Shown here: one piece after another, positions 32,493 through 47,045 of the stretch
Position numbering within the stretch: the stretch's first letter is position 1
Layout of the letters: each line of letters starts with the position of its first letter
NCBI RefSeq assembly: GCF_041320705.1
Contig: NZ_JBGGTQ010000004.1
Span: 434,001-498,000, forward strand
Length of the DNA stretch: 64,000 nt
DNA from: Kineococcus mangrovi
GTDB taxonomy: Bacteria > Actinomycetota > Actinomycetes > Actinomycetales > Kineococcaceae
Direction of reading: 5' to 3'
Program-made: the position numbers and the translations under genes
The notes under the pieces: model-generated
Told to the model about the DNA's origin: nothing
The model's input: only the letters and a program-made list of their open reading frames with translations
Databases searched by the model: none

Positions 32493-33416
32493 GTGCGAGA
32501 CCGACGGGTGGACGCCCTGCTGCTGGGCGTCGCGGTGGTGTGGGGCAGCAGCTACCTCGCGGCCAAGGCGCTGCTCGACAGCGGTGCGGGTACGGACGCG
32601 GTGCTGCCCGTCCTCACGCTGCGCTACGTCGGCGCGGCGCTCGCGCTCGCGGTCGTCGTCGTCCTCACCCGGGCCCGCGTCGGCCGGCACGAGCTGCGCT
32701 GGGGGCTGGTCCTGGGGTGCTCGCAGGCGGCGGTCCTGCTGCTGGAGACGTTCGGGGTGGCGGGGACCAGCGCGACCAACGCCGGTCTGCTCATCTCCAC
32801 GACCATCCTGCTCACCCCCGCGGTCGAGGGGCTGTGGACCCGGTCCTGGCTGCCGCCGTCGTTCTTCGCCGCCGCCCTCGTCGCGGTCGTGGGCGTCGCG
32901 CTCCTCGTGGGCGGGGGCGGGTGGCGCACACCCACGGCCGGTGACCTGCTGGTGCTGGCCGCGGCCGTCGTGCGGGCCTGCCACGTGACGGCGATCGGGC
33001 GGGTCACCCGGCGCGTCCGGCTGGACCTGCGCGGCCTGACGTTCGTCCAGACCGTCGTGGGCGCGGTCGGGGGTCTCGCGCTGTCCCCCTCGGCGACCGT
33101 CGGGTTCGCGGCGTCGGCCGGTGCCGGGCAGTGGGCCGGGGTGGCGTACCTGGCGCTGGGGTGCAGCGTCTTCGCCTTCCTCGCGCAGTCCTGGGCCGTG
33201 CGCCGGACCTCGGCCGCGCGGGCGAGCCTGCTGCTGGGGACCGAACCGTTGTGGGCGGTGCTGTTCGGCGTCGTCCTCGCGGGCGACGCCCTCGGGCTCG
33301 CCGGGGTGCTCGGGGCCGTGCTGCTGCTGTCGGCCACGGCGGCCGGGCAGCGCATCGAGCTGCGGTCGGCCGCGCGCAGGCGGCCCACCCCGGAACTGGC
33401 AGGATCGGAACCGTGA
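32493..33416 (+). CDS. EamA/DMT-family transporter
   Basis: The 307-residue protein has ten hydrophobic segments in two EamA repeats. The first repeat opens with [20 protein letters not shown], and the second ends with [19 protein letters not shown], a phrase typical of drug/metabolite exporters. Substrate is unknown. GTG 32493 has a poor ribosome site; GTG 32508 would lose five residues. Only about 70 bp separate it from the divergent broken LysR gene, its probable regulator. Its stop overlaps the adenosine deaminase start as GTGA. Confidence 0.88.
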
Positions 33417-34525
33417 GCGAGACGACCTCCCCGACGCAGGACCAGACCACCCTCGACCGCGTGCGGGCCCTGCCCAAGGTGTCCCTGCACGACCACCTCG
33501 ACGGTGGTCTGCGTCCGGCGACGATCGTGGAGATCGCCGCGCAGAACGGCCACCGGCTGCCGACGACGGACCCGGAGGAGCTGCGCGCGTGGTTCCGCGA
33601 CGCCGCGGACTCCGGCACGCTCGTGCGGTACCTCGAGACGTTCGACCACACCATCGCCGTCATGCAGGACCGCGAGTCGCTGGCCCGCGTCGCGACCGAG
33701 GCCGTCCTCGACCTCGCCGCCGACGGCGTCGTCTACGGGGAGCTGCGGTACGCCCCCGAGCAGCACCTGCAGGGCGGTCTGTCCCTCGACGAGGTCGTCG
33801 AGGCCGTCGAGGAGGGCATGCGTCGCGGGGAGCAGCAGGCCGCCGCGGCCGGGACGCCCGTCCGGGTCGGCACGCTCGTCACCGCGATGCGGCACGCCGA
33901 CCGCGGTCTGGAGATCGCCGAGCTCGCGCTGCGCCACCGCGACACCGGGGTCGTCGGGTTCGACATCGCCGGCGCCGAGATCGGGTTCCCGCCCTCGAAC
34001 CACCTCGCCGCCTTCGACCGCCTGCACGCCGAGAACTTCCCCGTGACCATCCACGCCGGGGAGGCCTTCGGCCTGCCGAGCATCGCCGACGCCCTGCACC
34101 CGTGCGGCGCCGAGCGCATCGGGCACGGCGTCCGCATCGTCGAGGACGTCACCGTGCACGAGGGCCACGACGCGCACGGGCTGCCGAACGCGACGCTCGG
34201 CCGCCTGGCCACGTGGGTGCGCGACCGCGGGGTCGTGCTGGAGCTGTGCCCGTCGAGCAACGTGCAGACGGGGGCGGCCACGAGCGTGGCCGAGCACCCG
34301 ATCACGCTGCTGAAGGACCTGGGGTTCTCCATCAGCGTCAACACCGACAACCGGCTCATGTCCGGGACCTCGCTGTCGCGGGAGTTCGCGCTGCTCGTGG
34401 AGGAGGCCGGCTGGGACCTCGCCGACGTCGAGCGGGCGACGATCACGGCGCTGTCCGGGTCGTTCCTGCCCTTCCCCGACCGGGTCGCGCTGGCGAGCGA
34501 CGTCATCCGGCCCGCCTTCGCCTGA
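33413..34525 (+). CDS. add: Adenosine deaminase
   Basis: The enzyme converts adenosine or deoxyadenosine to inosine or deoxyinosine. The 370-residue protein carries zinc ligands in [12 protein letters not shown] (H-x-H) and IHAGEAFG, and the catalytic end in [11 protein letters not shown] and [25 protein letters not shown] is also typical. GTG 33413 follows CAGGAT (33400-33405) by 7 nt and overlaps the EamA stop, so it can be transcribed both from its own leaderless start and by read-through. Adenosine deaminase belongs with the nucleoside operon at 20-27 kb, from which accessory genes separate it. Confidence 0.96.
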
Positions 34526-35573: not shown

Positions 35574-36167
35574 ATGATCACCGCAGAGGACCCCCGTCAG
35601 ACCATGCTCCGCGCCGCCGACCTCGCCGGCCGTGTGCTCGACGCCGTCCCCGTCGCCGCTCACCAGGACCCGACCCCGTGCACGGAGTGGACGGTGGGCG
35701 ACCTGCTCGGCCACCTCGTCGCCGTGACGCACCGCGTCGCCCACATCGCCCGCGGCGGGTACGCCTCCGACCTGCCGACGGTGCTGACGGCCGAACCCGA
35801 CGAGGGTTTCGCCGCCGCCTACGCCGCCGGGGTCGACGGTGTCCGCGCGGCCTGGGCCGACGACGCCGTGCTGACGGCCACGGTGCACCACCCGGCCGGC
35901 GACGTGCCGGGCGCGGTCGGCGCGACGATCTACGTCCAGGAGTTCGCCACCCACGCCGTGGACCTCGCCGTCGCGACGGGGCGGCAGGACCTGCTGGAGG
36001 AGGAGTTCCTCGCCGGGGTCCTGGAGATCGCCCGGCGCGTCGTCCCGGCCCAGCGGGACGGTTTCCCCTTCGACCCGCCGGTCGCCGTCCCGGACGACGC
36101 CCCCGCGCACGTGCGGCTGTCCGGGTGGCTCGGCCGGGAACCCCGCGTGGCCTCCCGTCAGCTGTAG
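35574..36167 (+). CDS. TIGR03086-family DinB-like metal-binding protein
   Basis: The 197-residue protein belongs to the mycothiol-dependent maleylpyruvate isomerase/DinB-like group. PTPCTEWTVGDLLGHLVAVTHR carries the first metal His, and a second region has EFATHAVDLAVATGR. The C-terminal part is short. A GSH- or mycothiol-dependent transferase role is possible in the family, but the substrate is unknown. The ATG has GGAAG upstream. The divergent WYL gene is its likely regulator. It overlaps the convergent RsgA-like gene by 10 bp. Confidence 0.85.
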   Translation: MITAEDPRQTMLRAADLAGRVLDAVPVAAHQDPTPCTEWTVGDLLGHLVAVTHRVAHIARGGYASDLPTVLTAEPDEGFAAAYAAGVDGVRAAWADDAVLTATVHHPAGDVPGAVGATIYVQEFATHAVDLAVATGRQDLLEEEFLAGVLEIARRVVPAQRDGFPFDPPVAVPDDAPAHVRLSGWLGREPRVASRQL

Positions 36168-37018
36168 CGGTCGCGGTTCGCCTTCGCGATCCTCTTCCCC
36201 TCCCGGTGCCGGTCGGCGGCCAGGCGCGCGTCGGTCCGGCCGGCGAACCACGCCCGCTCCCGCTCGGGCGTGCGCAGGTTCTCCAGGCGATGCCGGTCGA
36301 ACACCCCGACGTCGGAGACCCCGAGGCTGCGCAGGCCGGGGGTGTCGACGAGGACGAGCGGTGCGCCGTCACCCGGGACGGGGTGCAGTTCCCACGTCAC
36401 CGTCGCGTGCCGGCCCTTGCCGTCCGCCGAACGGACCGCTCTGACCGCGAAGCGGTCCTCACCGAGCAGGAGGTCGGCCGGCGTGGACTTGCCCGCACCC
36501 GAGGAGCCGAGGAGGACGACGGTGCCCCGCAGGTGGTTCCGCAGTTCCGCGATCGTGGCGGGATCGTCCTGGCGGACCGGGACGACCTCGACCCCGACCG
36601 CGTCGGTCCGCACCCGTTCGGCGACCCGTTCGAGGTCGTGGGCGGGAACGAGGTCGCTCTCGGTCAGGGCGACCACGGGGTGCGCCCCGCAGTTCCACGC
36701 CAGGGCGAGGAACCGTTCGACCCGGCCGTTCGTCGTCCGCGACGGCGCGCCGATCGCGACGACGACCGTGTCGACGTTCGCCGCCAGCACGTGCTCGGCC
36801 GAACGCCCCGTCACCGAGGCCCGCGCGAGGACCGTCCGCCGGGGCAGGACTCCGACGGGTCGGGCCCCGACCGGGTCGTCGAGCGAGGGGCCGACCCAGC
36901 CGCCCGTGGTGGGTTCGGGCACGAGTGCCCCCGCAGGGACCTCGACCCGCTGCGGGCCGAGCGGGGTCTGCACGTCGCACGCCCCGCGGTGCACCCGCAC
37001 GACGCGGGCCCGCAGCAC
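36158..37018 (-). CDS. RsgA-like circularly permuted GTPase, degenerate
   Basis: About 286 residues show an OB-like start (VRVHRGACDVQTPLG), then the permuted G domain with P-loop GSSGAGKST, DGKGRHATV and VDTPGLRSLG. RsgA normally helps mature the 30S ribosome subunit. Three features are odd. The guanine-specificity motif reads LTESD in place of (N/T)KxD. The zinc-binding C-x-H-x-C region that should follow the G domain is absent. The usual N-terminal segment (LGWDEDRDRRWAVF) is found upstream at 37020-37163 but in another frame. I start the gene at GTG 37018. It may be a paralogue losing function, with the true RsgA elsewhere. Confidence 0.7.
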   Translation of the reverse strand: MLRARVVRVHRGACDVQTPLGPQRVEVPAGALVPEPTTGGWVGPSLDDPVGARPVGVLPRRTVLARASVTGRSAEHVLAANVDTVVVAIGAPSRTTNGRVERFLALAWNCGAHPVVALTESDLVPAHDLERVAERVRTDAVGVEVVPVRQDDPATIAELRNHLRGTVVLLGSSGAGKSTPADLLLGEDRFAVRAVRSADGKGRHATVTWELHPVPGDGAPLVLVDTPGLRSLGVSDVGVFDRHRLENLRTPERERAWFAGRTDARLAADRHREGKRIAKANRDRYS

Positions 37019-39452: not shown

Positions 39453-40088
39453 TCAGGCGGGCCGGACGGCGCCGGTGAACAGCGGGCCGACCAGCGCGAG
39501 GTCGTCGAGGTCGGCGAGGTGGTCGGGGGGCAGCGGGGGCAGGACGCGGGTGCCGGCCTCCGCGCACGCCCGGCGCAGCCCGGCGTCCCAGTCGTCGGGG
39601 GCCGCCCGCACGTCCAGCAGCGTCACGGTCGCGGCGAGCTCGCGGACGGTGCCGGGGTCGCGGGCCACGACGGTCACGGCCTCGGCGGGGAACTCCGCGG
39701 CCACGACGTCGACGAGGGCGGCGACCGCCGCGGACTCGTGGGCGACGACGCACCGCGCGCCCGCCGCGAGCGCCGAGCACAGGACGCGGGCCGCGCCGAG
39801 GAACTCCTCGGGCGGCAGGACGGCGAGCGGGGGCGGGCGCCGGCCGCCGGCCGCGACGGGCAGGACGAGGTCGAGCTTGTCGGCCCACCCGGCCCACCGC
39901 ACGATCGTGTCGACGCACCCGTCCACCTGCGCGACCGCCTCGGAGATCCGGCAGCGGTGCGCGCGGCGCACCTGCTCGACGAAGCGCTGGCGACCGGACT
40001 CCACCTCGGCGGCGGCGGCCAGCAGCGCCCGCCCGCGCCGGGCGGCGCCGTGCGCGGGGGAACGGGGCCGGAGGGGGCGTTCACCCAC
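39453..40088 (-). CDS. Truncated aldehyde dehydrogenase-like protein, no catalytic domain
   Basis: The 211-residue protein resembles only the N-terminal nucleotide-binding half of aldehyde dehydrogenases. RISEAVAQVDGCVDTIVRWAG has the position and character of the helix that precedes the cofactor fold, and LAVLPPEEFLGAARVLCSALAAG stands for the segment that normally reads as the N-x-P region. No catalytic domain, active-site Cys or general-base Glu follows. The start overlaps the preceding homologue by 8 bp. Codon bias is as strong as in neighbouring genes, so it does not look like debris. A structural or regulatory role with its partner is the likely explanation. Confidence 0.6.
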   Translation of the reverse strand: MGERPLRPRSPAHGAARRGRALLAAAAEVESGRQRFVEQVRRAHRCRISEAVAQVDGCVDTIVRWAGWADKLDLVLPVAAGGRRPPPLAVLPPEEFLGAARVLCSALAAGARCVVAHESAAVAALVDVVAAEFPAEAVTVVARDPGTVRELAATVTLLDVRAAPDDWDAGLRRACAEAGTRVLPPLPPDHLADLDDLALVGPLFTGAVRPA

Positions 40089-41481
40089 GGCACGCCCGGA
40101 GCAGGTCCAGGGCGTCCTGGCGCGGGTCCGGCGGGGCGGGCACCTCGGTGCCGAGCTCCCCGCCCCACACGGTGACCGACCCGGCGCCCGCGAGGTGGGT
40201 CAGCGCGTCGTCGGCGGAGCGGATCGACCGGACCCCCGGGACGGGACCCGGCGGCGGCCACGCGCTGTGCCGCCCGACGGTCGCGACCCCCGGCGGTGCC
40301 CACCACCCGCCGGCGGGGAGCCCCGCCGGCAGGCCGGCCGTGGCGTCGAGGACCTCGCGCGCGGCCCGGGCCAGGTGCGGGGTGGGGACGGGGCCGACGG
40401 CGGTGGCCCGGTCCAGCGGGTGGCCGGTGCGCAGCCGCGAGACCACCGGCGCCACGCGCTCCACGAGCGCGTCGACGACGGAGCGGTGGGCGAGCACGCG
40501 GGACCCGCCGGGCCGCTCGTGGGCGCCGCCGATCGCGGCCTCCACGAGGGCCAGCGACACGGCCTCGAGGTCGGCTCCGGCGAGGACGACGTCCACGTGC
40601 GGGGCGTCGGGGCGCTGCAGCAGGGGCGTGCCGCGCCCGGCGAGCGCCACGCCCACCGCGCGCAGGTCGTCGGCGGAGCCGTCGGCGCGGACCGCGACGA
40701 GGTCGGGGTGGGCCCACAGGGTCGCGTCCGTCGCGGCGTCGGCGCCCGGCGCGGAGCGGACGAGCCCGGCGGGCAGCCCGGCCTCCTCCAGGAGCCGGAC
40801 GAACTGCCGCGCGCTCGCCGCGGCCGCGGGCCGGGCCCGCAGCACGACGCCGCAGCCGGTCGCGAGGGCGGCGACGACGGCGCTGAGGGTGTCCGCGGTG
40901 CTCGTGCGCCAGGTGGTCAGGAGCACGACGACGCCACCGCCGGGGCGGTGCGCGGCGCCGACGCTCTCGAGCTTGTCGGCCCAGCCGGCGGCGGAGAACG
41001 CGGCGGTGTGCGCCGCCGGGACGTCGAGGGTGAACCCGGCGGCCAGGGGGCGACCGGTCGTCAGCGCGGCCGTGACGGCGAGCGCCCGCACGTGCCCGCC
41101 GAGGACGTCGGAGACGGCGAAGAGGAACCGCGCCCGGTCCTGGGCCGAGAGCCACGCCCAGTCGGTGCGGCTCGTGCCGGCGACGGCCGCGGCGATGTCG
41201 CGGGCCAGGTCCGGGCTGGTGTCCTCCACCCGCAGGAGGCGTTCACCCGTCGTGGGGGCGAGCACGTCGAGCAGGTCGCCGGTCGTCCCGGCGGCGCCGC
41301 CGGGGCCGTCGGCCAGGACGAGGCCGGGGACCTCGTCGGGCAGGGTGCTCGTGCCCGGGACGGGCGGGGGGGAGGCGGCCAGGGAGTCGGCGGCGGCGGG
41401 CAGGTCCAGGGTGGTCACGCGCAGCGGGGACTCCCGGGGGGCGGACAGTCCCACGACAGCATCCGGTAGCGAAGCGCTCAC
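40081..41481 (-). CDS. Aldehyde dehydrogenase-fold protein lacking catalytic residues
   Basis: The 466-residue protein follows the full aldehyde dehydrogenase length and fold: DLLDVLAPTTGERLLRVEDTS, DIAAAVAGTSRTDWAWLSAQDRARFL and WADKLESVGAAHRPGGGVVVLL. But where the family has GQxC, this protein has ERPGGSRVLAH, with no Cys, and where LELGGK carries the general-base Glu it has LLQRPDAP. It is therefore probably not an active dehydrogenase. GTG 41481 follows TAGACT (41495-41490, minus) by 8 nt. In other actinobacteria I recall ALDH pairs following deoC; no deoC is present here. Confidence 0.7.
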   Translation of the reverse strand: MSASLPDAVVGLSAPRESPLRVTTLDLPAAADSLAASPPPVPGTSTLPDEVPGLVLADGPGGAAGTTGDLLDVLAPTTGERLLRVEDTSPDLARDIAAAVAGTSRTDWAWLSAQDRARFLFAVSDVLGGHVRALAVTAALTTGRPLAAGFTLDVPAAHTAAFSAAGWADKLESVGAAHRPGGGVVVLLTTWRTSTADTLSAVVAALATGCGVVLRARPAAAASARQFVRLLEEAGLPAGLVRSAPGADAATDATLWAHPDLVAVRADGSADDLRAVGVALAGRGTPLLQRPDAPHVDVVLAGADLEAVSLALVEAAIGGAHERPGGSRVLAHRSVVDALVERVAPVVSRLRTGHPLDRATAVGPVPTPHLARAAREVLDATAGLPAGLPAGGWWAPPGVATVGRHSAWPPPGPVPGVRSIRSADDALTHLAGAGSVTVWGGELGTEVPAPPDPRQDALDLLRACRG

Positions 41482-41561: not shown

Positions 41562-43139
41562 GTGGCCGCCCACCCGCACGAGCACCCGCACGAGCACGCC
41601 CACCCCCACTCCCACGCGCACCCGCTGCCCGCCGACCCGGCGTCCACGCCGGGGGACGACCGCGAGTACGCCTGGTACGCCGGGGACCACCACATCCACA
41701 CGACGTTCTCCCGCGACGCCATGTACTCCGTCGACGACCAGGTGCGCCGCGGCCACGCGTGCGGGCTGGACTGGATGGTCATCACCGACCACGGCGGCCC
41801 CGACCACGCCAAGCAGTCCGTCGCCCTCCAGACGCCGCTCATCGCGCAGGCCCGCCGACGCCACGACGTCCTCGTCTTCCAGGGCATGGAGTGGAACATC
41901 CCCGGCGCCGAGCACGCCACGTTCATCGCCCCCGAGCACGAGGGCACCCCGGACCTGCTGCAGCGCTTCGAGCGGACGTTCGACGGCGAGGTCCTGTCCG
42001 CCCGGCACAACCCTGGCGGGCCGCGGCGCATCCAGGACACCTTCGAGGCCGGCCCGGTCGCCGAGCAGCTGGGCCTGGACGCCCTCGCCTGGCTCGCCGA
42101 GGAGCTGCGCACCGGCCCGGTCGGCGAGGCGCTCGTGCTGTCCAACCACCCCATGCGCACGGGCCGGGTCTCCCCGTCGAAGGTGCGGGGCTGGCGCGAC
42201 GCCGCCCCCGGCCTGTTCGTCGGCTGGGAGGGGGCCCCGGGCCACCAGGCCGCTGCGCTGCCCGCGCCGCTGGGTCGCGGCCGCGGTCGGGGCCAGTACG
42301 ACGAGGTGCCCGGTCCGGCGTCCTTCCCCGGCTACGACCTCGACCAGTACCGCACGTGGGGCGGGTTCGACGCCGGGACCGCCCGGATGGGCGGGTTGTG
42401 GGACTCCCTGCTCGCCGAGGGCCTGCCGTGGTGGATCACCGCGAACTCCGACAACCACTTCGACATCGGCGACACCGTCGCCGTCGGCAACCCCTCCGCC
42501 GAGCACTACCGCCGGCACGGCTCGCGCGGGGAGCCCGTCGAGACGGGCGTCGTGCAGCACGGGTACGTCGACTTCGCCCCGGGGTTCTACTCCCGCACCT
42601 GCGTCGGGTCGACCACCCGCGACTACCGGTCGGTCATGGCCGCGCTGCGCTCAGGCCGCGTCTTCGTCGTCCACGGCGGGCTCGTACGCGCCGTCGAGGG
42701 ACGCGTGCGCACCGGCCCCGGCCCCGGCGTCACGTTCGGCGCCCGCACCACCGTCGAGCGGGGCGGGGACGTCGAGGTGGAACTGCGCGTCGACCCCGCC
42801 ACCGAGGCCAACGGCAGCGGCGAGGTGCCCCGGTCGGCGCGCTGGGACGTCATCGTCGGCACCGTCACCGGCCGGGTCGCCGACACCGACCGCGACCTGT
42901 TCGAGGCCCCCGGCACCCGGGTCGTCGAGAGCTTCGAGGTCCCCGCCCGCGCGACCGGCCGGCAGGTGTTCCGGACCGTCCTGCGCAACGTGGCCGACCC
43001 CCTCTACGTCCGGTTCCGCGGCAGCGACGGCCGCCACGCCGACGCCGACGGGCACCCCCGCGTCGACCGCATCGGGGACTCCGACCCGTGGGACGACCTG
43101 TGGTGCTACACGAACCCGGTGTTCGTCGACGTCGTGTGA
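41562..43139 (+). CDS. PHP-domain metallo-phosphoesterase with His-rich N-terminus
   Basis: The 525-residue protein has a PHP fold: YAGDHHIHTTFSRDAM (H-x-H), VITDHGGPDH and the late TANSDNHFD. PHP enzymes hydrolyse phosphoesters with two or three metals, and this group may act on nucleotides or sugar phosphates. It opens with about twenty residues of HPHEHPHEHAHPHSHAHP type, which may bind or buffer metal ions. The C-terminal 150 residues form a beta-rich domain not part of PHP. It is divergent from the ALDH-like gene and upstream of the convergent DUF418 gene. Substrate is unknown. Confidence 0.82.
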   Translation: MAAHPHEHPHEHAHPHSHAHPLPADPASTPGDDREYAWYAGDHHIHTTFSRDAMYSVDDQVRRGHACGLDWMVITDHGGPDHAKQSVALQTPLIAQARRRHDVLVFQGMEWNIPGAEHATFIAPEHEGTPDLLQRFERTFDGEVLSARHNPGGPRRIQDTFEAGPVAEQLGLDALAWLAEELRTGPVGEALVLSNHPMRTGRVSPSKVRGWRDAAPGLFVGWEGAPGHQAAALPAPLGRGRGRGQYDEVPGPASFPGYDLDQYRTWGGFDAGTARMGGLWDSLLAEGLPWWITANSDNHFDIGDTVAVGNPSAEHYRRHGSRGEPVETGVVQHGYVDFAPGFYSRTCVGSTTRDYRSVMAALRSGRVFVVHGGLVRAVEGRVRTGPGPGVTFGARTTVERGGDVEVELRVDPATEANGSGEVPRSARWDVIVGTVTGRVADTDRDLFEAPGTRVVESFEVPARATGRQVFRTVLRNVADPLYVRFRGSDGRHADADGHPRVDRIGDSDPWDDLWCYTNPVFVDVV

Positions 43140-45365: not shown

Positions 45366-47045
45366 TCAGGCCGTGGCCGCTCGCACGTCGGCCAGGACCG
45401 CGTCGAGGCGCTCGCGGGCACCGGCCCGCACCGCGGCCAGGTCCGCCCCGGCCGGCACGTCGGCGACGACCTCGCAGTAGCACTTCAGCTTGGGTTCGGT
45501 GCCGCTGGGGCGGACGACGACGCGGGTCCCGTCGGCCGTGCGGAACCGCAGGCCGTCGGTCGGCGGCAGCCCGTCGAGACCGTCGGCGAGGTCCTCGGCC
45601 GACGTCACCGGCGAACCGCCGAGCGCCGCCGGGGGTTCGGCGCGCAGCCGGGCCATCGTCGCGGGGATGACGGCGAGGTCGTCGACCCGCACCGTCACGG
45701 GCGCGGTGAGGTGCACGCCGTCGGCGCGGTCCAGGTCGTCGAGGACGTCGGGCAGCGTGCGGCCCGCGCCGAGCTCGCGCCGCACGACGGTGGCGACGAG
45801 CAGGGAGGCCGAGATGCCGTCCTTGTCGCGCACGACCTCCGGCGCGACGCAGTAGCCGATGGCCTCCTCGTAGCCGAACGTCAGCTCCGGGACCCGGGCG
45901 ATCCACTTGAACCCCGTCAGGGCGGAGGTGAACCGGGCCCCCGTGCGGGCCGCGACCCGCTGCAGCGCCTGGGAACTGACGACCGAGCAGGCCAGGACTG
46001 CGCCAGGCGTGGCGAGTTCCTGACCCAGCAACCTGCCGAGTTCGTCACCGGTGAGCTGACGGAAACCGTCGGGGGTCGGCACGGCGACGCAGCACCGGTC
46101 CGCGTCGGGGTCCACGGCCAGCACGACGTCGGCCCCGATGTGCTGCGCCAGAGCCACGGCGCGGTCCAGCGCGCCGGGTTCCTCCGGGTTCGGGAACGGC
46201 ACCGTCGGGAACGCCGGGTCGGGGTCGGCCTGCTCGGTGACGGAGTGGACGTCGGTGAAACCGCCGCGGCGCAGCACCTCCAGCAGCACCGGACCCCCGA
46301 CGCCGTGCATCGCGGTGACCACGATCCGCGGGTCGCGCCCGGGGGTTCCCGCACCGACCGCCGACCCGATCGCAGACAGGTAGTCCGCCACGACGTCGTC
46401 GCCGAGCACGGTCCACCCCCCGTCGGCGCGGGGCAGGTCCCGCAACCGCCCGACCGCCGCGATGCGCTCGGCGATCTCGGCGTCCACGGGCGGCACGATC
46501 TGCACCCCGCGGCCCTCGGTCCCGGTGGCCCGGGCACCGAGGTAGACCTTGTACCCGTTGTCGGCCGCCGGGTTGTGGCTCGCGGTGACCATCACGCCCG
46601 CGTCGGCGTCCAGGTGCCGCACGGCGAACGCCAGCACGGGTGTCGGCAGGGGCCGCGGCAGCAGCAGCACCTCGCACCCGGCCGCCGTCAGCACCGCGGC
46701 GGAGTCGTCGGCGAACTCCCGCGAGCCGTGGCGGGCGTCGAGACCCACGACGACGCGCGGCCGCGGGAACCGCTCGGTGAGCCAGGCACCCAGACCCGCC
46801 GCGGCGCGCTGGACGACGGCGCGGTTCATCCGGTGCTCCCCGGCGCCGACGCGGCCGCGCAGCCCCGCCGTGCCGAACTCCAGCGGCCCGCGGAAACGGT
46901 CCCGCAGCTCGGCGGTGGCCTCGGCCGAGCCGGCCCGCGACGCGTCGAGCAGGGTCTGCAGCTCCGTCCGGTCCCGCTCGTCGGGGTCGTCCTCGATCCA
47001 CGCCTCCACGCTGGCACTGACCCGGTCGTTCAACGGTGCGCTCAC
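45366..47045 (-). CDS. Phospho-sugar mutase (phosphomannomutase/phosphopentomutase type)
   Basis: The 559-residue enzyme belongs to the alpha-D-phosphohexomutase family. The phosphoserine loop is VTASHNPAADNGYKVYLG, the metal-binding loop is DPDADRCCVA, and the sugar-phosphate contact is RPSGTEPKLKCY. It is most like the PmmB/YhxB-type enzymes, which can act on pentose phosphates. Near purine nucleoside phosphorylase and the nucleoside catabolic genes, a role in converting (deoxy)ribose-1-phosphate is likely; mannose or glucose phosphates remain possible. Confidence 0.9.
   Translation of the reverse strand: MSAPLNDRVSASVEAWIEDDPDERDRTELQTLLDASRAGSAEATAELRDRFRGPLEFGTAGLRGRVGAGEHRMNRAVVQRAAAGLGAWLTERFPRPRVVVGLDARHGSREFADDSAAVLTAAGCEVLLLPRPLPTPVLAFAVRHLDADAGVMVTASHNPAADNGYKVYLGARATGTEGRGVQIVPPVDAEIAERIAAVGRLRDLPRADGGWTVLGDDVVADYLSAIGSAVGAGTPGRDPRIVVTAMHGVGGPVLLEVLRRGGFTDVHSVTEQADPDPAFPTVPFPNPEEPGALDRAVALAQHIGADVVLAVDPDADRCCVAVPTPDGFRQLTGDELGRLLGQELATPGAVLACSVVSSQALQRVAARTGARFTSALTGFKWIARVPELTFGYEEAIGYCVAPEVVRDKDGISASLLVATVVRRELGAGRTLPDVLDDLDRADGVHLTAPVTVRVDDLAVIPATMARLRAEPPAALGGSPVTSAEDLADGLDGLPPTDGLRFRTADGTRVVVRPSGTEPKLKCYCEVVADVPAGADLAAVRAGARERLDAVLADVRAATA

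Follow-up and report, generated by a model that had tools for sequence, protein, structure and literature searches.

A split ALDH16 gene pair of Kineococcus that has probably turned into a pseudoenzyme

Two neighbouring minus-strand genes in a 64,000-nucleotide stretch of Kineococcus mangrovi DNA (positions 434,001 to 498,000 of contig NZ_JBGGTQ010000004.1, assembly GCF_041320705.1; hereafter the window) encode relatives of aldehyde dehydrogenases (ALDHs). The first, N (40081..41481), encodes a protein of 466 aa and the second, C (39453..40088), one of 211 aa; both start with GTG. An earlier, sequence-only reading of the window had described a full-length and a half-length reading frame with an 8-bp overlap at these positions, and both were confirmed. 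N matched the Pfam family Aldedh (PF00171) at 6.4e-39, its 134 bits lying above the curated cut-off of 23, and C did not match any Pfam or NCBIfam family at an E-value of 0.001. The GC content at the three codon positions (0.83/0.62/0.97 for N and 0.87/0.58/0.98 for C) is that of strongly coding DNA. The best PDB match of N was the ALDH16 of Loktanella (6mvr; 3.8e-27), in which a second region also matched N. This was the first hint of what the findings below suggest, namely that N and C represent the two domains of an ALDH16 in separate genes.

We compared the locus across 12 genomes of Kineococcus and one GTDB sister genus, here referred to as the family. Whole-genome searches returned an N orthologue in 11 of the 12; in the remaining one, the draft G299 with its 1060 contigs, N was not matched. 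Contigs end in or near the pair in G304 (in which C was not seen), G297 and G298. The last genome yielded only the first 210 residues of N, at a contig end, and was left out of alignments A1 and A3 and of the rate calculations, as was the C gene of G297 from alignments A2 and A6 and the rates. In both N of G298 and C of G297, the last residues before the contig end are unaligned, which may reflect a frameshift or the assembly edge. The N stop and the C start overlap by the 8 bp GTGGGTGA (40081..40088, minus strand), probably allowing translational coupling. All nine family genomes in which both ends are visible have a GTG at the same site, within the pattern GTGNNTGA. This GTG is the first possible C start in five of the nine; in the other four we picked it over one or two starts further upstream.

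The gene order in the family is phosphohexomutase, a gene for a PHP-domain protein on the opposite strand, N, C and adenosine deaminase. The mutase, N, C and deaminase follow each other in this order in the window and in seven other family loci; where the stretch was sufficient, the mutase was present in eight of nine loci and the deaminase in eight of eight; the one locus without a visible mutase was G304, examined up to 6.3 kb from the PHP gene. In the window, the phosphohexomutase-family gene (45366..47045, minus strand; Pfam PGM_PMM I-IV) and the adenosine deaminase gene (33131..34525, plus strand; Pfam A_deaminase at 2.5e-100 over residues 115-459) are, by synteny, the putative upstream and downstream anchors of an ancestral deo cluster. 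The deaminase reading frame was probably called with a start too far upstream. Between the deaminase and the pair there is a reading frame (36158-37018) that resembles an RsgA-type GTPase by eye, an arrangement also present in L059-L063 and L065. Another ALDH gene 40 kb upstream of the window (G000:C4:395449) was considered as part of a second such pair and rejected, as it is an ordinary ALDH with a retained Cys (by eye) and unrelated neighbours.

The divergent PHP gene (41562..43139, plus strand; Pfam PHP at 2.2e-6) encodes a CehA/McbA-like metallohydrolase, matching the NCBIfam CehA/McbA model at 3.2e-18, although its 66 bits fall short of the cut-off of 80. It stands beside N in all 11 family loci, 80 bp away in the window, and occupies the place that deoC has in other Actinomycetota. 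The gene was not matched in any of 22 N loci outside the family. Judged by its position alone, this conserved gene is a candidate functional neighbour of the pair.

The sequence-only reading had noted that N lacks the active-site Cys and the general-base Glu of ALDHs. Both are indeed missing, and so is the oxyanion Asn. Alignment with ten catalytically intact orthologues placed Arg192, Arg290 and Arg323 of N at the positions of Asn169, Glu268 and Cys302 (ALDH2 numbering). A phmmer alignment to the ALDH16 structure 6mvr agreed on all three; which Cys is meant is pinned down by 6mvu, a mutant entry with Ala in place of the Cys at the catalytic column. The codon for Arg192 lies at 40906..40908, that for Arg323 at 40513..40515, where it opens a new RPGG motif, and that for Arg215, which replaces the cofactor residue Lys192, at 40837..40839 (all minus strand). 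Each of these three is Arg in all ten family rows, and the residue replaced is invariant in all ten deoC-linked rows. The position of the general base (Arg290 in the window, 40612..40614, minus strand) is not fixed in the family and holds R, Q or D. The E(I/V)FGPV loop that carries the cofactor residue Glu399 is replaced by PPPGPV (40240..40257, minus strand), with PPPGP in all ten family rows.

Taken together, the positions of Asn169, Lys192, Glu268, Cys302 and Glu399 read R, R, (R/Q/D), R and P in all ten alignable family proteins, as opposed to N, K, E, C and E outside the family, in 40 of 40 genomes and in 19 of 19 loci. The family profile, searched across the phylum, returned these 19 loci; they score among the best for the family N and so form a non-random sample; one genome (G106) is common to both sets. 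The answer to the question whether Cys and Glu are always missing from orthologues is thus yes within the family and no outside it. At the cofactor positions, Lys192, Glu195, Gly250 and Glu399 are all replaced in the family N.

In 28 columns of N, family and deoC-linked rows are fixed to different residues. Seven of ten functional positions are fixed to a new residue in the family, compared to a background of 102 of 386 comparable columns (binomial 0.005), although the ten positions were taken from general ALDH knowledge and listed only after the alignment had been inspected. Such fixed columns are modestly enriched in loops (18/45, versus 84/341 elsewhere; Fisher p 0.032); these statistics treat related rows as independent and serve as guides only. 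Among the residues that do not vary across the ten family N rows, there is no Cys, Glu, His, Tyr, Asn or Gln; those with polar or charged side chains are T, D, R, K and W, plus a single S at a column that holds Tyr in the outside rows.

In Actinomycetota outside the family, deoC, an intact ALDH gene and a half-length ALDH gene stand in a row. The three occurred together in 22 of 22 outside loci of 10-14.5 kb with an N-type gene, and within the fetched stretches the phosphohexomutase was also visible in 14 and the adenosine deaminase in nine of them. In G327, deoC lies about 1.5 kb from N, beyond the short locus used in the 40-genome set, but is counted among the 22. A separate C was present in 39 of the 40 genomes of that set (none was found for G328), and in the 19-locus set deoC was not within the short locus L116. 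Six further hits (L053-L058), scoring 265-325 against the N of the intact locus L091 and with intact residues, were classed as other ALDHs and not as orthologues.

Comparison with known structures indicates what the intact pair encodes. Residues 9-286 of the intact C of L091 (287 aa) align to residues 501-766 of the ALDH16 entries 6mvu/6mvr, with a whole-sequence E-value of 8.4e-53 and the next family at 9.8e-28. Intact N matched the ALDH16 6mvr at 1.1e-168, followed by ALDH2 at 2.4e-123, and a profile built from 18 C proteins (eight from the family and ten from outside) matched ALDH16 at 1.6e-66. As intact C covers the second domain of ALDH16 and intact N matches ALDH16 best, the actinobacterial deoC-linked ALDH pair encodes a split ALDH16. 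Its layout is that of ALDH16, in which a truncated second ALDH-type domain comes after a full ALDH domain, here in the form of two overlapping genes; the domains do not share one chain, as a stop codon and a new start lie between N and C. This split is common to the window pair and its intact actinobacterial relatives. By profile, the C of the window matched intact C at 4.9e-19 and intact N at 1.5e-7, and the N of the window matched intact N at 1.5e-35. We therefore regard N and C as putative descendants of ALDH16 domain 1, now without catalytic residues, and of domain 2, now eroded.

Fused counterparts of the split genes occur in Alphaproteobacteria. On plasmids of Paracoccus, Phyllobacterium and Roseicitreum, a single ALDH16 gene of 787-799 codons directly follows deoC (L094:4016-7355, L095:3929-7373 and L096:4035-7340) in all three regions that we examined out of 871 records matching N. 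All three fused proteins carry a VCCAG motif and both domains; the match of the C of L091 to their C-terminal 270-280 residues has E-values between 7.4e-43 and 3.8e-40. In the regions examined, bacterial ALDH16, fused or split, is thus a neighbour of deoC. A ribokinase gene lies upstream of deoC and the fused ALDH16 gene in two of the three plasmids.

The family itself appears to have lost this partner. The earlier observation that deoC is not beside the pair is correct within the window, and the long, cluster-type deoC was not found in any of the 12 family genomes, four of which are in at least 120 contigs. Each of the 12 contained one weaker deoC match elsewhere (62-79 bits, 39-45% identity); cluster deoC in seven order-level genomes, among 39 genomes searched, gave 400-452 bits. 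The only deoC of the window genome (TIGR00126, above cut-off) lies on another contig and differs in type from the cluster deoC. This gene (L092:6759-7802, G000:C2) adjoins a gene for a HAD-type phosphatase, as judged by eye. An intact ALDH16 domain 1 was not seen elsewhere in the 12 family genomes: the best other ALDH reached 374 bits at 46% identity, compared to 652-1090 bits for intact N orthologues in a search with a different query protein.

In a tree of N computed under LG+C20 from 35 rows (10 family, 17 deoC-linked from the 40 genomes, three fused and five other ALDHs), the family formed a single starred clade whose branch is very long, at about 4.5 changes per column in all. AU tests rejected neither the placement of the family with the deoC-linked rows (p 0.168) nor that with the fused rows (0.11). 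As the tree did not settle the placement, we argue orthology from gene order, the paired layout and the match of C. By synteny and profile matches, the pair is the presumed Kineococcus form of the actinobacterial deoC, ALDH and half-ALDH cluster.

Both proteins of the family are also shortened. The family N proteins lack, by alignment, the C-terminal GGYKESG strand of intact N. Missing from the C of the window are almost 60 residues at the N-terminus, the greater part of the segment that follows WAGWxDK (the flap) and the WHPxG tail. C proteins measure 209-266 aa in the family, with G306 the least shortened at 266 aa, as compared to 280-306 aa in ten outside rows of alignment A2. The GWxDK motif is retained in both N and C. 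From general ALDH structure, we assume that the segments missing from N and C belong to the oligomerisation domain. Both proteins would then be expected to have lost the elements that would join them in the manner of ALDH16.

An AlphaFold2 model of C (pLDDT 79) displayed an ALDH-type cofactor-domain fold when searched with Foldseek and VIA-align (Z 19.8, rmsd 3.0 over 195 residues). ALDH16 was absent among the structural matches listed for this model, which decides nothing either way. The model of N, built with five sequences (pLDDT 47), was too poor for mapping of a pocket.

Selection on the pair, as claimed in the sequence-only reading, was borne out. Among the six nearest genomes, the codon-model omega was 0.062 for N and 0.065 for C, close to that of the mutase (0.056) and above that of the PHP gene (0.034). 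With all usable rows, the values were 0.068 for N (10 rows), 0.075 for C (8), 0.065 for the mutase (8) and 0.039 for the PHP gene (10). NG86 estimates for the nearest pair were 0.113 for N, 0.129 for C, 0.103 for the PHP gene and 0.141 for the mutase, and of the 126 sites at which the two nearest N genes differ, 97 are third codon positions. Among the wider pairs listed, NG86 rose to 0.29 for N and to 0.53 for C (G302), with 0.24 and 0.22 for the neighbours. Codon tree lengths were 13.1 for N versus 4.8 for the PHP gene in the same 10 genomes, and 11.8 for C versus 5.2 for the mutase in the same eight. Part of the constraint on N and C thus appears to be relaxed, given that both genes evolve faster than their neighbours, that some C pairs reach 0.53 and that segments have been lost. 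The fairest summary would be a strong present constraint on the pair after a phase of fast change.

These data bear directly on the possibility that the pair is a slowly decaying relic, useless after the loss of deoC and kept open only through the scarcity of stop codons in high-GC DNA. Catalytic, cofactor and oligomerisation elements are indeed lost together, C is shortened, both genes outpace their neighbours across the family, and protein ends fail to align at contig edges in two of the drafts. However, an omega of about 0.06 in both genes, like that of the adjacent mutase, makes decay unlikely; the nearest-pair NG86 values lie in the range of the neighbours, the N frame is open in all ten aligned genomes, and the GTGNNTGA overlap is constant in nine of nine. 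The sequence-only reading would have seen decay if orthologues retained the catalytic residues or if dN/dS was near 1. Orthologues outside the family do retain them, but dN/dS is far below 1, which argues for loss followed by constraint rather than decay, and we consider a relic quite improbable.

The sequence-only reading had instead envisaged a sensor or scaffold that binds NAD or an aldehyde as an ALDH-like complex in deoxyribose breakdown. In its favour, the pair descends by synteny from a deoC locus, and it would also fit the conserved overlap that couples the two genes and the other deoC found elsewhere in all 12 family genomes. The binding of NAD is unsupported, with all four cofactor positions named above replaced, and so is an ALDH-like complex of N and C, since by alignment N has lost its C-terminal strand, and C its N-terminal segment, flap and tail. 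A role in deoxyribose breakdown is weakened by the failure to find the cluster deoC in the family; the deoC that remains differs in type from that of the cluster and lies, in the window genome, on a separate contig. This version therefore seems unlikely to us. That N has remained catalytic, using another nucleophile or carrying out another reaction, would agree with the strong selection and with the new residues fixed in the former active-site loops, but we judge it highly improbable in view of the narrow set of invariant residues, which contains none of Cys, Glu, His, Tyr, Asn and Gln. Just as improbable is an N that derives from another ALDH paralogue that moved in: the deep family branch of unsettled placement would allow it, but the same anchors stand on either side, N and C keep their order, and the best match of the C partner is intact C.

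We consider it likely that the pair is a split ALDH16 turned pseudoenzyme, made as two chains and reused for binding or regulation. In our proposed course of events, deoC would have been lost from an ancestral locus of deoC, ALDH and half-ALDH genes in the Kineococcus family, and the ALDH16 pair would have lost its catalytic triad, several NAD-contacting residues and the segments expected in the oligomerisation domain. New residues are fixed in the former active-site loops, and purifying selection and the 8-bp overlap have been maintained. N and C would be produced jointly and work as a non-catalytic unit for binding or regulation.

The positions of Asn169 and Cys302 lie near each other in ALDH structures. 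The best candidate for a binding site is the former active site, with its fixed Arg at the positions of Asn169, Lys192 and Cys302, and these arginines make an anionic ligand the most testable guess. A more specific picture is a good deal less certain and is offered tentatively: the Kineococcus ALDH16 active site might have become an anion pocket, in which the three arginines would hold a phosphate or carboxylate, as of a sugar phosphate or nucleotide, and the coupled N and C might have a sensing or regulatory role without catalysis, possibly in concert with the PHP metallohydrolase, in parallel to vertebrate ALDH16A1.

Among known systems, the closest is the intact split ALDH16 of other Actinomycetota. 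Like the window pair, it consists of two genes with the half gene second, between phosphohexomutase and adenosine deaminase; its triad, cofactor residues and deoC are intact, whereas the window pair lacks these and several segments. Bacterial ALDH16 proteins such as LsALDH16 (6mvr) and the fused alphaproteobacterial forms share with the pair a full ALDH domain and a truncated second ALDH-type domain. They differ in being one chain with a catalytic Cys, as opposed to two chains without it. A review describes the Loktanella ALDH16 as carrying an additional, large cofactor-binding domain that is non-functional (PMC8160307). The fused genes are linked to deoC in three regions, like the presumed ancestral locus of the window pair. 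This linkage, in split and fused forms alike, hints at an ancestral enzyme that acted on an aldehyde from deoxyribose breakdown, and gives ALDH16 in general a background in nucleoside metabolism.

The other counterpart is vertebrate. Published reports describe human ALDH16A1 as an ALDH16 that lacks the catalytic triad and for which a binding role is proposed (PMC10650815, PMC8160307), and the role of inactive ALDH16 in vertebrates as unsettled (PMC10650815). Neither a bacterial ALDH16 pseudoenzyme nor a link between ALDH16 and deoC was found among the literature matches listed, although such remarks may appear in the paper on the ALDH16 structure and in two papers on ALDH16A1. The Kineococcus pair combines the features of an ALDH16 pseudoenzyme, namely ALDH16 architecture, a lost triad and a constrained sequence. 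As intact bacterial relatives exist, the bacterial loss of the triad looks like a second one, separate from that in ALDH16A1. Like ALDH16A1, which according to these reports is a proposed binding protein, the window pair belongs to ALDH16 and lacks the triad; ALDH16A1 is a single animal chain, whereas the window pair consists of two bacterial ones. With intact relatives in the same gene order, the bacterial pseudo-ALDH16 provides a before-and-after series in easily handled organisms.
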